In this document: positions 33,437 through 38,542 of the stretch, one piece after another | Layout: each line of letters begins with the position of its first letter | Numbering within the stretch: the first letter of the stretch is position 1 | DNA from: Natronobiforma cellulositropha | GTDB lineage: Archaea; Halobacteriota; Halobacteria; Halobacteriales; Natrialbaceae | NCBI RefSeq assembly: GCF_025629245.1 | Contig: NZ_JANZXN010000006.1 | Span: forward strand, 62,001 to 126,000 | Reading direction: 5' to 3' | Length of the DNA: 64,000 nucleotides | Notes under the pieces: generated by a model | Told to the model about the DNA's origin: nothing | Databases searched by the model: none | What the model saw: the letters and a program-made list of their open reading frames with translations, nothing else | Program-made: the position numbers and the translations under genes

Positions 33437-34255
33437 AGAGAGAGTGTATCGAGGGAGGAAGCAAAATCGTTGTGGTCGGAGCGACGAGCCTCGAGCACCG
33501 TCGCGAGCGATTCGATATCGCATCATAGGGTATATTGAATGGGCGGGTGTGATCACGAGCAGTAGCCCACCAGACCGTGAACGGAGCAGAAACGGCCGAT
33601 TCGGGTCGAGATCGGTCGACCAGCACGCCGTCGACACCACTGACGCGGCCCGAGGGGGCGGCCACACCATCGAGGTGCTGCCCGGGACGGCTCGAGTCAG
33701 CCGACGGCCGCCAGCGCACAGCGAGGGTCCTCGAGAGCCATCGCTAGTTCGTTGGCAAACCTGAACGAATGCGTGGTCTCGATGCGGTTGCCTGGGTTCA
33801 TCACCGGCCGATGCGCGACGGACTATCCAACGCCGACACCGTCGGGTAGCCGGTGTTCGGCCGACCGGGATCAGACGCTGGGTCGGCCGTGGCCAGGCGA
33901 CCGGCGGCCCGGAGGATGCGTGGACGGCCAGCGCGCGAAAGAGCCGCAGCCAAGACGGACGGCCGGTCGAAACCGTCAGCCTCGCCTCTCACGCAGACGG
34001 ACGGCCGCAGGCCACGCGCTCGAGCGCACCCGCGAGCGGCGAGACCAGTGGACAGACGGCGCCACAGCAGCGAGAGATCGCCCCGACAATCCGAACGCAG
34101 GCGATGTGAGCGTGCTCGAGGGACGCGTGTACAGACTGTGGACGGCCAGACAGCCGTCGATAAACCACATACGAGGATACGAAATCGGTTCTGGCGCGCA
34201 CCGAGACCGGCTGTCGGGGGACCGTTTTAAGCCCACACAGCCGAAATCGCGGGGT
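33437..34255. other. Long intergenic region before the Orc1-like gene, no gene seen
   Basis: This 819-base stretch has open frames on both strands, but none with halophilic bias or recognisable motifs. It contains a near-duplicated GACGGACGGCCG (around 33955 and 34001), a weak TATA-like AGGGTATATTGAATG near 33527, and a TATA-like GTTTTAAG at 34234-34241, about 20 bases before the GTG of the Orc1-like gene. I see no repeated origin-recognition boxes of the haloarchaeal type, so I do not call an origin. Confidence 0.55.
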
Positions 34256-35269
34256 GTGATCGTCGACAGCCGCGTCCTCCGTGAGGACTTCGTCCCGAGC
34301 GAGGTGCGCCACCGCCACGACGAGGTGAGCCACCTCTCGGAGACGCTCGAGCCGCTGCTCTGTGACGAGCCGCCGGAGACGGCGTTCCTCTTCGGTCCGA
34401 CCGGCGTCGGCAAGACCTGCATCGCCCGCTACACGCTCGCAGCGCTCCGCGAACAGCGCCCGGACGTCCGCGTCGCCTACGTCAACTGCTGGCAGGAGTA
34501 CACCCGCTACCGCGTGCTCTACCGGGTGCTCGAGGCGCTCGAGCGGGCGTTCGACGTCCACGGCTCGACGCCGACGGCCGACCTGTTCGACCGGCTGGCA
34601 CGGGCGGACGAGCGCCCCATCGTGGTCGTCTTAGACGAGGCCGACCAGCTAGAGGAGACCGAGGTGCTCTACGACTTCCACCGGCTACGCCACGTCTCGC
34701 CGGTGTTGATCGCCAACCGCGAGGAGGAGCTGTTCGCTCACTTCGACGACCGCGTCCGCTCGCGCCTGCGCGCCGGGACGCGCGTCTACCTGGAGCGCTA
34801 TCGCGCCGACGAACTGGTCGCGATTCTCGAGGAACGGGTGCGACAGGGGCTCGAGCCCGGCGTCGTCGACGAACCGCAGCTTCGCGCGGTCGCCGACGCG
34901 GCGGCGGGTGACGCCCGCGTCGCCATCGGCACGCTCCGGACGGCCGCACGGCTGTCGAGCCAGCGCGGGCGCGAGCGAATCACCGACGAGGTACTCGAGA
35001 CCGCGATTCCCGACACGCGGGCGGCGATCCGTCGAGAAACCATCGAGGGGTTGATCGAACACCAGCGCGTCCTCTACGAGCTGATCACCGACGCGGGCGA
35101 AATCGCCCCACGAGACCTCTACGACGCCTACGAGACGCGGGTCGACGAGCCGAAGACGACGCGGACGCTGCGGAACTACCTGACGAAGATGGTCCACTAC
35201 GACCTGATCGAAGCGCGCGGGCGAAAACGCGGGCGTACCTACCGCGTCCTCGAGGACGACGCGGTGTGA
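34256..35269 (+). CDS. Orc1/Cdc6-family AAA+ ATPase
   Basis: This 337-residue AAA+ protein has the origin-recognition architecture in compact form. The N-terminus contains DFVPSEVRHRHDEVSHL, the Orc1-type entry. Walker A is GPTGVGKT at residues 47-54, Walker B is VVVLDEADQ, and sensor motifs follow (HVSPVLIANREEELF). A C-terminal winged helix (residues about 265-335) ends with YDLIEARGRKRGRTYRVLE. It is shorter than the main replication initiators (about 400 residues), so it is a minor Orc paralog or a cassette-linked ATPase. The GTG start is chosen because VIVDSRVLREDFV is the family start. The RecA-like/PolB operon follows after 148 bases. Confidence 0.87.
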   Translation: MIVDSRVLREDFVPSEVRHRHDEVSHLSETLEPLLCDEPPETAFLFGPTGVGKTCIARYTLAALREQRPDVRVAYVNCWQEYTRYRVLYRVLEALERAFDVHGSTPTADLFDRLARADERPIVVVLDEADQLEETEVLYDFHRLRHVSPVLIANREEELFAHFDDRVRSRLRAGTRVYLERYRADELVAILEERVRQGLEPGVVDEPQLRAVADAAAGDARVAIGTLRTAARLSSQRGRERITDEVLETAIPDTRAAIRRETIEGLIEHQRVLYELITDAGEIAPRDLYDAYETRVDEPKTTRTLRNYLTKMVHYDLIEARGRKRGRTYRVLEDDAV

Positions 35270-35417
35270 GGCTACGGAGCACGTTTCGGAAACCGGGGGA
35301 AACGGCGGAGAGCGCCTCGAGAGCGGGTTTTCACCGGCGCTGGCGATGGTGGGTGGTTTCGGAACCGCCAGAAACGACCGCCCGACGGTTATGGGGTGCG
35401 TCGCCGACTCGCCGTGT

Positions 35418-36065
35418 ATGGACCCGACAGACGAACTCGAGACCGGTCTCACCCTGCTTCGAGTGCCGGCGGCCCGGTCGACGGTGCTCCACCGGCTGGT
35501 GTGTCACCACCTCGAGCGCCAGCGCGCACCGGCCTACTGGATCGACGCACGAAACACCGCCTCGACGCACGCGCTCTACGAGTGTGCCTCGACGCCTCGG
35601 ACGCTCGAGGGACTCGAGATCGCGCGGGCGTTCACCGCCTACCAGCACCACACGCTGGTTCGCGAGGTGGCTCGGCGTGCCGACGCGAACACGGGTCTCG
35701 TCGTCGCGCCGAACGTCGCAGATCCCTATGCAGAGGTCCCCGACTGGGAGCGAGCGGAACTGCTCGCCGCGACGCTCGTGACGCTCCGCGAACTCGGCCG
35801 TGCGCTCGCGTGTCCGGTGGTCGTCACCGGAACCGACGAGCAGGCCCTCGAGACGGTCGCCGAACACGCAACCACCGAGATTCGGAGTGTACAGACGCGC
35901 GAAGGGGTCAGACTCGAGGGTGAGCGCTACCGGACGGCCTGGTACGACCACGGCACCTACTGGCAGACGACGATTCCCTACTGGGTCGAGGTCTGTGGAT
36001 CGCTCGAGGAGGTGGTCGATCCGGTCGTCGTCGCGGCCGACTGGGGGCTGGTGGAGGTGGCCTGA
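35418..36065 (+). CDS. RecA/RadB-like protein lacking Walker A
   Basis: This 215-residue protein resembles the RecA core of RadB, but where the P-loop should be it reads LLRVPAARSTVLHRLVCHHL, without the Gly-Lys-Thr/Ser needed to bind ATP phosphates. The next strand is PAYWIDARNTASTHALYECA, like the YIDTE segment of RadB. A Walker B-like strand appears in CPVVVTGTDE. A C-terminal tail with YDHGTYWQTTIPYWVEVCG is unlike RadA. It is thus probably an inactive RecA-fold partner, comparable with the ImuA/SulA-like proteins of bacterial mutasomes. The ATG at 35418 begins MDPTDELETGL. Its stop shares one base with the next start (TGATG). Confidence 0.7.
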   Translation: MDPTDELETGLTLLRVPAARSTVLHRLVCHHLERQRAPAYWIDARNTASTHALYECASTPRTLEGLEIARAFTAYQHHTLVREVARRADANTGLVVAPNVADPYAEVPDWERAELLAATLVTLRELGRALACPVVVTGTDEQALETVAEHATTEIRSVQTREGVRLEGERYRTAWYDHGTYWQTTIPYWVEVCGSLEEVVDPVVVAADWGLVEVA

Positions 36066-36355
36066 TGGGGCGGACGACGCCGACCTACCGGGACGCACTG
36101 CGCGGGCTCGAGACCGAGTGGGAGCCGATGCGGCGGGCGCTCAGGCGGGAACACCAGGCGGACTTCGACCGGCTGTTCGCCCGCGCCCACGGCTTCGCCG
36201 ACGCAGCGGGCTACGCGAACCCGCCGGAGCCGGAGCGTGCGCTGCTGGTCTCGCTGTTGCTCGCCCACGAAGCGGAGCTTCGGGTCCTGCGCGAGCGACT
36301 CGAGGCGAGGGATGCTGACGAAGGGTCGGGAGATGTGGACGACGAGGTGGTCTGA
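36065..36355 (+). CDS. Small helical protein between RecA-like and PolB genes
   Basis: This 96-residue protein begins MGRTTPTYRDALRGLETEWE, continues with PMRRALRREHQADFDRLFAR, and has AHGFADAAGYANPPEPERAL in the middle. It is mostly alpha-helical, with mixed charge in the first half and an acidic tail. The start overlaps the RecA-like stop by one base, and its stop directly abuts the GTG of the polymerase gene. This tight packing implies a stoichiometric partner of the two larger proteins. I do not recognise a motif. Confidence 0.78.
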   Translation: MGRTTPTYRDALRGLETEWEPMRRALRREHQADFDRLFARAHGFADAAGYANPPEPERALLVSLLLAHEAELRVLRERLEARDADEGSGDVDDEVV

Positions 36356-38542
36356 GTGGCCTACGCGTTCGATTTCGAGGAGGATCTGGTGCGCGTCTGG
36401 AATCTGTCCGCCGACGGCGCGACCTACGAGGAGCGAACCGACTACCGGCCCTCGCTGTTCGTCGACGCGCCCGAGCGGCCACTCGAGCGCCTCAGCGCCC
36501 GACTCGAGCGAGATCCGAAGGTGAGCGAAACCGGCTTCGAGATCCGATACACCACATTACGCGATATGAAATGTGACGAGCCGACGCGCGTCCTGCGCGT
36601 CTCGTTCGAGCGTGTCTCGGAGGGACGGACGCTCACGAGGGAGATCCGCGGCGTGCACGCCCGCGAACTCGCGTGTGCGCCCGGAACGGTGCGTCTGTTC
36701 AACGTGGGCTTCGCACCGGGATTTCGCTACTGTCTGGACGAGGGGGTCGACCCGACGCCGTCGTCAGTCCGCGACCTCCGGGTGTTGCGGATCGGCATCG
36801 ACGAGCGCGCGCTCGCGGCCGGCGACGTCTCCGCGCTGGCCGTCGACGGCGAGGCGGTTCGTGGCGATCCGGCGGACGTCTGCTGGTCGCTCGGCCGGCG
36901 ACTCGAGCGGACGGACCCCGACGTGCTGTGTCTGAGCCACGGTGATCTCGTCCCGGCGCTCGAGACGGCGGCGGCGGAGGCGGGGATCGAGGAATTCCAC
37001 CTCGGGCGGCTTCCCGGCTGGCAGCGTCTGTCGAGGGCGAACACGTACACACACGAGGGGCGGGCGGGGTCCGCCCCGGCCAGGTACCACGTGCCGGGGC
37101 GGGCGGTCGTCGACGAGTCGAACAGCTTCCTCTGGCACCAGTCCGGACTCGAGGGAATCCGCTACCTGGTCGGACGGACCGGCAGGCCGCTCGAGGAGAC
37201 CGCGTGGGCGAGTATCGGGACGCTCCTGACCGCGCGCCAGATTCGGCTGGCGCGCCGCGAGGGTGTGCTCGCACCCCACCAGAAGTGGGAGCCAGAGCGG
37301 TTCAAGGACGTGGGGACGCTCCACGCGGCCGACCGCGGCGGCTTCACCTTCACGCCCGACGTCGGGTTTCACGAGGATGTCTTCGAGATCGACTTCGCCT
37401 CGCTCTACCCGCGCATCATCTGCCGGCACAACGTGAGTCCGGAGACGGTCGACTGTGCGTGCTGTGACGAGGGGGCAGGGGCGCGCGTGCCCGAACTCGA
37501 GTACCGACTCTGTGAGCGCGACGGCTTTCTCCCCGGCGTGTTACGCCCGTTGCTCGACGACCGGGCCGCGTGCAAGCGCGCGCTGGCGGGCGACCCCGAC
37601 GAGGCGGAGGCGGCGCGCCTCCGGGCGACCTCGGGGGCGATCAAGTGGGTGCTCGTCTCCTCGTTCGGCTACCAGGGCTACCGGAACGCCACCTTCGGCC
37701 GGATCGAGTGTCACGAGGCGATCAACGCCATCGCGCGCGACATCCTCCTCCGGACGAAGGCGCACCTCGAGCGGGCGGGCTGGCGGATCGTTCACGGGAT
37801 CGTCGACAGCCTGTGGGTGACGCCGGAGGCGTCAGCGCCGGAGCCGCTCGAGGGCGTCCTCGAGACGGTGAGCCACGACGTGGGGATCGAACTCGAGCAC
37901 GACGGGACCTACGAGTGGGTGTGTTTCCTCCCGCAGCGGACGCCGGGGCGACGCGCGGACGTGCCGAGAGGCGCGCTCACCCGGTACTTCGGGAAACGCG
38001 AGAGCGGCGAGTACAAACTGCGCGGTATCGAGGCACGCCAGCGCTCGACGCCCGCGTTCGTCGCCGAGTGTCAGCGCGAGTTCATCGACGTCCTCGACCG
38101 TGAGCGCGAGCCGGAAGCGGTCTGTGACCGTCTCCAGCGCCGTCTCGAGGACCTCAGACGGGGTGTGGTCGACCCGGCCGACCTCGTGGTCACGAAGCGG
38201 GTCTCGAAGCCGGCGTCGGCCTACCGCCAGCGGACGCAGGTCGTCGCCGCGCTGGGCCGTTACGAGTCGCACGGACTGACGCGGCGGCCGGGACAGTCCG
38301 TCTCGTACGTCGTCACCGACAACGGTGCGCGCCGGACGCGCGAGCGCGTTCGGCTGGCGTTCGAACTCGAGTCGGCGAACACCACCGGCGGCGGTTCCGG
38401 CGAGTACGACGTCGAGTGGTACAGCAAGGCACTGATCCGCGCGTGTGAGAGCGTCGTCTCGGCGCTGGGGTGGGACCGGGCGGCGATCAGGCGATACCTC
38501 GAGCGTCGGGAAACGGTCAGGCTCTCTTCATTTGTCGAATGA
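36356..38542 (+). CDS. PolB2-like family B DNA polymerase
   Basis: This 728-residue family B polymerase is shorter than the replicative PolB. The N-terminal half shows no clear DxE or DEDD exonuclease motifs, so proofreading is probably absent. The polymerase motifs are present: motif A DFASLYPRIICRHNVSPET with D346, motif B ATSGAIKWVLVSSFGYQG with K430, and motif C HGIVDSLWV with D484. In motif C the first Asp of the usual DTD is Ile482, but the second, the metal ligand, is kept. The thumb region continues to a His/Arg-rich tail. It fits the archaeal PolB2 group. The GTG start follows the preceding stop directly. Confidence 0.85.
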   Translation: MAYAFDFEEDLVRVWNLSADGATYEERTDYRPSLFVDAPERPLERLSARLERDPKVSETGFEIRYTTLRDMKCDEPTRVLRVSFERVSEGRTLTREIRGVHARELACAPGTVRLFNVGFAPGFRYCLDEGVDPTPSSVRDLRVLRIGIDERALAAGDVSALAVDGEAVRGDPADVCWSLGRRLERTDPDVLCLSHGDLVPALETAAAEAGIEEFHLGRLPGWQRLSRANTYTHEGRAGSAPARYHVPGRAVVDESNSFLWHQSGLEGIRYLVGRTGRPLEETAWASIGTLLTARQIRLARREGVLAPHQKWEPERFKDVGTLHAADRGGFTFTPDVGFHEDVFEIDFASLYPRIICRHNVSPETVDCACCDEGAGARVPELEYRLCERDGFLPGVLRPLLDDRAACKRALAGDPDEAEAARLRATSGAIKWVLVSSFGYQGYRNATFGRIECHEAINAIARDILLRTKAHLERAGWRIVHGIVDSLWVTPEASAPEPLEGVLETVSHDVGIELEHDGTYEWVCFLPQRTPGRRADVPRGALTRYFGKRESGEYKLRGIEARQRSTPAFVAECQREFIDVLDREREPEAVCDRLQRRLEDLRRGVVDPADLVVTKRVSKPASAYRQRTQVVAALGRYESHGLTRRPGQSVSYVVTDNGARRTRERVRLAFELESANTTGGGSGEYDVEWYSKALIRACESVVSALGWDRAAIRRYLERRETVRLSSFVE

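Follow-up and report, generated by a model that had tools for sequence, protein, structure and literature searches.

A 64,000-nucleotide stretch of the Natronobiforma cellulositropha genome (contig NZ_JANZXN010000006.1, positions 62,001 to 126,000; hereafter the window) carries a compact three-gene operon, iRadA-PPB2-PolB2. It is very probably a haloarchaeal form of the PolB2 mutasome, a known system, with putative control by an Orc1/Cdc6-like protein through a TTTCGGAA-type tandem repeat as part of the explanation. Makarova (2014, PMC4104785) reported these genes as a conserved operon, and a heteropentamer model of the 'PolB2 mutasome' followed in 2025 (Timinskas, PMC11791011). Both the system and the term had thus been published before, for archaea as well as bacteria. 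The mutasome prediction of an earlier note on this DNA, made from the sequence alone, is therefore not new; the operon itself is an already-known system, and its presence is ordinary. The new part seems to be a conserved switch shared with an orc-like gene. The genome comprises 3.76 Mb in 60 contigs and was compared with 61 related genomes, which underlie the co-occurrence counts and promoter-element scans reported below.

All three genes lie on the forward strand. iRadA (35418..36065) encodes a RadA/Rad51-fold pseudo-ATPase of 215 amino acids, PPB2 (36065..36355) a small, presumably helical subunit of the arCOG07300 type with 96 amino acids, and PolB2 (36356..38542) a B-family polymerase of 728 amino acids. 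The tight packing described in the earlier note is found at exactly these positions. iRadA and PPB2 share a single base (TGATG, 36063-36067), and the stop codon of PPB2 (TGA) ends at 36355, directly before the GTG start of PolB2 at 36356, leaving a gap of zero. Because the three-gene arrangement is found again in relatives, it lies far beyond chance. An alternative start for iRadA exists upstream (ATG 35346). However, ATG 35418 is most likely the true start, because relatives begin there and a TATA-like core (TTAT, 35389..35392, forward strand) is located 26 nucleotides (nt) upstream of this codon. The distance between core and start codon suggests that the iRadA mRNA is leaderless.

PolB2 matches the family model NF004418 with 788.8 bits (cut-off 692), and AlphaFold2 and Foldseek assign it the fold of a B-family polymerase. 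When aligned with PolB3 of the same genome, the Exo I motif (FDIE in PolB3) reads LRIGID in PolB2 and Exo III is deleted, in line with the PolB2-like polymerase without exonuclease motifs that had been proposed for the third gene. The motif B Asn is changed, and in motif C, DTDS is replaced by IVDS (here HGIVDS), which substitutes the first Asp of DxD. HGIVDS or HGLVDS is found in 29/29 haloarchaeal orthologues. The Asp of motif A is retained, and this residue and the second Asp of motif C are invariant in 29 haloarchaeal PolB2 sequences. The loop that precedes motif A, with ADRGG in the window's PolB2, contains D326-R327, which corresponds to the published D(K/R) motif and is likewise invariant (29 sequences). 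Just N-terminal of this pair, the PolB2 monomer model has one of its low-confidence stretches, a loop that may fold on a partner. At the C-terminus, all 29 of 29 proteins carry a clamp-like [LI]xx[FYW] tail, here LSSFVE, which aligns with the clamp tail GLDSFM of the genome's own PolB3, but without its Gln. Short or stop-interrupted PolB2 relics occur in G002, G007, G014, G023, G028, G032, G040, G052 and G057, which suggests that haloarchaea have often lost the mutasome.

The window's iRadA yields no convincing family match on its own in Pfam or NCBIfam. A profile built from 25 orthologues matches RadA with E=2.8e-12, and 11 of 25 family members match Pfam Rad51. The AlphaFold2 model (pLDDT 88.8) has RadA, Rad51 and Dmc1 as its top PDB matches. 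At the position of Walker A (GxxxxGKT) iRadA reads VPAARSTVLH, and the position of the Walker B Asp reads VVAPN; the residues of both motifs are lost in every orthologue seen. iRadA is thus a RadA fold without the N-terminal domain and without ATPase residues, consistent with the RecA/RadB fold lacking Walker A that was originally noted. In one relative, G011, a truncated iRadA lies inside the PolB2 operon and two full copies lie elsewhere (L049, L113, L114); one full copy has an exact TTCGGAA-NN-TTCGGAA tandem, a repeat discussed below, in its promoter.

PPB2 begins with MGRT, and M1, G2, R3 and T4 are invariant in 27/27 aligned orthologues. A comparison of PPB2 with PDB sequences gave no significant match. 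PPB2-like genes with an MGKT instead of an MGRT start are found in G004 and G031 (L108:8001-8306, L110:8001-8282) without adjoining PolB2 or iRadA. The gene that follows each of them encodes a small HPQDDLLI-motif protein, and a small protein similar to this type is also encoded near a lone iRadA (L111).

The three genes co-occur strictly. At thresholds of E<1e-100 for PolB2 and E<1e-20 for iRadA, PolB2 is present in 34, PPB2 in 33 and iRadA in 34 of the 61 genomes. All 33 genomes with an intact PolB2 also have iRadA and PPB2, and none of the 28 others has all three. The only other genome with strong matches, G009, contains a broken PolB2 and pieces of iRadA, but no PPB2. Fisher's test gives p 1.8e-16 for the co-occurrence, a value that ignores shared ancestry. 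This phylogenetic profile had been proposed in the earlier note as a check. Run at genome level, it speaks in favour of the operon, with the same 33 of 61 genomes carrying the set, and independent occurrence of the three genes is rejected at that level. The idea of a mutasome-like operon with the 96-residue protein as a small subunit is thereby supported, its novelty excepted.

The window's operon agrees with the published PolB2 mutasome in its three families and their order, the MGRT arm, the D(K/R) motif, the loss of Walker and exonuclease motifs, the substituted DxD and the adjoining orc1/cdc6 gene. We see no difference in kind; the window's iRadA has diverged so far that it matches no Pfam or NCBIfam model by itself. 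In Sulfolobus, PolB2 (Dpo2) is damage-induced and needed for targeted mutagenesis (as summarised in PMC11791011). By analogy, the haloarchaeal operon may be induced by damage and act mutagenically; in the literature searched, we found no experimental test of PolB2 mutasome function in haloarchaea. In such a scheme, damage would switch on the operon through the Orc protein. PolB2, which lacks proofreading and has one catalytic Asp replaced, would elongate primers whose ends are mispaired or blocked by a lesion. iRadA, whose ATP site is lost, would attach to a PolB2 loop in the way that neighbouring recombinase subunits attach to each other. PPB2 would form a trimer, with one MGRT arm reaching close to the DNA in the cleft that PolB2 and iRadA enclose. 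Mutations would result when PolB2, in complex with iRadA and PPB2, elongates lesion-blocked ends.

Located 5' of the operon and on the same strand is a gene for an AAA+ protein of the orc1/cdc6 family (34256..35269; 337 amino acids from a probable GTG start, within a longer open reading frame (ORF) at 33752-35269), which we regard as a candidate regulator. The protein matches TIGR02928 with 191.3 bits (cut-off 181.3), and its PDB matches are to archaeal Cdc6/Orc1. Related orc genes are found in 41/61 genomes (E<=1e-50). Enrichment of orc1/cdc6 beside the PolB2 mutasome in archaea is reported in PMC11791011, and in Halobacterium polB2 is divergent from an orc gene (PMC1906834). Haloferax volcanii has its polB2 close to a radA-like gene.

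A shared promoter element connects the two. CGGAA is present in 20/25 upstream regions of iRadA genes, compared with 4.2 expected, and frequently occurs as a pair at a distance of 9 bp. In these promoters, the tandem ends about 42-46 nt before the start codon and ~13 nt before the TATA-like box. In the window, it reads CGGAACCGCCAGAAAC (35360..35375, forward strand) and ends 42 nt 5' of the iRadA start, at a spacing to the TATA-like core that is kept in relatives. The pattern CGGAA-N4-CGGAAAC was derived from iRadA promoters only, so that the orc genes serve as an out-of-sample test. Of its 124 sites in the 61 genomes, 5 fall in the 200 nt preceding iRadA, and 10 fall in the 200 nt preceding orc family members, where 0.003 would be expected. 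The element also marks promoters of the orc subfamily where orc and iRadA are unlinked. A stricter form, TTCGGAA-NN-TTCGGAA, written after the orc promoters had been seen, has 15 sites (1 match in a read-backwards control). Nine of these lie upstream of orc, including three mutasome-free genomes (G019, G027, G035), and one lies upstream of an iRadA copy without an adjoining orc.

The occurrence of the element tracks that of the orc gene. In relatives where the window's orc has a close orthologue (at least 370 bits), 15/16 iRadA promoters contain the element with at most one mismatch, compared with 2/22 in the other relatives and about 1.4% of random 200-nt windows. The associated p value of about 1e-7 is indicative only, as it is not corrected for ancestry and the 370-bit cut was picked after the table had been seen. 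The passages of PMC11791011 and PMC4104785 available to us contain no description of such an element. A wide regulon within this genome is unsupported: the strict spacing has 2 matches and the tandem 2 others, and the latter two do not resemble promoters. In three genera, the element also precedes a conserved stretch of ~200 nt without a long ORF (L198:1570, L202:1572, L145:1501); a search of two of the three stretches against Rfam found no family. In L145, this stretch is followed by an integrase-like ORF, which suggests a provirus.

Some lineages appear to use a different motif. TTTCACTTTCA is the UV-B motif of Halobacterium radA1 (Boubriak et al. 2008, PMC2556686). It precedes iRadA in four genomes that have either no counterpart of this orc or only a distant one (0, 1, 1 and 2 mismatches). 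The Halobacterium motif occupies the same position before the TATA box as the CGGAA element, but the window's mutasome promoter carries the latter instead. Since the radA promoter of this genome (L184) has TTTCACTTTCA and no CGGAA tandem, membership of the mutasome promoter in the radA motif group is ruled out here. TTTCACTTTCA ends exactly 48 nt before the radA start in this genome and in nearly all readable relatives, a placement that extends the 2008 observation. In G047, the orc promoter (L052:2901-2911) has TTTCACTTTCA in place of the CGGAA tandem.

A precedent for control by an Orc protein exists in Sulfolobus, where Orc1-2 binds the DDRE ANTTTC in the promoter of its own gene and where Dpo2 induction requires Orc1-2 (PMC9738581). 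Both systems combine a PolB2 polymerase with a gene of the Orc1/Cdc6 family that has a TTTC-containing element in its own promoter. In contrast to Sulfolobus, the putative Orc site here is a tandem TTTCGGAA-type repeat, and the likeness is one of family, not of established orthology. This parallel leads us to suggest the adjacent Orc1/Cdc6-like protein as regulator of the mutasome, acting through the tandem before iRadA. A fuller, SOS-like version of the model is conceivable, although we would put it at somewhat under even chances. Here, a non-initiator Orc1/Cdc6, whose gene may lie next to the mutasome or elsewhere, would bind the TTTCGGAA tandem in its own and in the mutasome promoter and activate both after damage, and lineages without this Orc would have placed the mutasome under the radA-type TTTCACTTTCA instead.

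The same element could instead be a replication-origin box (ORB) that lies next to an orc gene and is no operator of the mutasome. Its GGAAAC cores presumably resemble ORBs, and some sites elsewhere form short arrays. Archaeal Orc1 proteins do bind origin boxes (PMC9738581). However, the element keeps a fixed place ~42-50 nt before the start codons and just before the TATA-like box, in iRadA and orc promoters alike, and it also precedes iRadA copies without an adjoining orc (G005, G011), which makes an ORB unlikely. Less probable still is a catalytically dead complex with a structural or regulatory role in replication restart, or in origin control together with the adjacent Orc1/Cdc6. The substituted catalytic Asp (DTD to IVD), the changed motif B Asn, the alteration of all exonuclease motifs and the upstream orc gene would fit this proposal, and the 2014 analysis (PMC4104785) put forward inactivation as well as a connection with replication initiation. 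Yet the invariance of the motif A Asp and the second motif C Asp argues against a dead enzyme, and several genomes have the orc gene at an unlinked site.

The earlier note had also called the operon the haloarchaeal counterpart of the bacterial ImuA cassettes. The logic is indeed the same, as a RecA-fold pseudo-enzyme is encoded together with an error-prone polymerase. However, iRadA matches RadA, RadB and Rad51 models and no ImuA model in NCBIfam or Pfam, the polymerase is of the B family, and neither a Y-family ImuB nor a C-family DnaE2 is present in the operon; the single Y-family polymerase gene of the genome lies on another contig. ImuA homology is ruled out, as the profile matches go to RadA, RadB and Rad51, and only these family types recur. 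We therefore give a homologous archaeal ImuA-ImuB-DnaE2 cassette next to no credence; the comparison stands as a possible analogy and fails as homology, with iRadA deriving from the RadA/Rad51/RadB side. ImuA-ImuB-DnaE2 and Pol V (UmuC-UmuD'-RecA) likewise pair an error-prone polymerase with a RecA-fold partner, and for the small subunit the likeness is to Pol V only. The operon differs from both in its polymerase family, its RadA-derived partner and its unrelated small subunit.

Several observations weigh against an Orc-controlled PolB2 mutasome as the explanation for this locus. The three genes are sometimes apart: in G048, iRadA sits on another contig, and at some loci PPB2 and PolB2 are 1-5 kb apart. 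Many relatives lack the PolB2 system or have decayed copies, so that it is not a core function. The polB2 gene of Halobacterium is non-essential (PMC1906834), and that of Haloferax can be deleted, as reported from unpublished work. The window's own orc promoter is without the element, which in this genome is found only at the iRadA promoter, and that copy has one mismatch to CGGAA-N4-CGGAAAC.

Two further features flank the operon. The intergenic region between orc and iRadA contains the near-palindrome GTTTCGGAAAC (35283..35293), with 1 match in the window compared with 0.03 expected. On the 3' side follows an unrelated PAS-type histidine kinase (read by eye).

Taken together, the shared, position-fixed element provides a handle on the regulation of induced mutagenesis in haloarchaea, for which no damage regulator is named in the literature searched. 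Model species amenable to genetics would allow mutation of both the element and the Orc gene. If the proposed switch is true, Orc control of damage genes would span Sulfolobus and haloarchaea.
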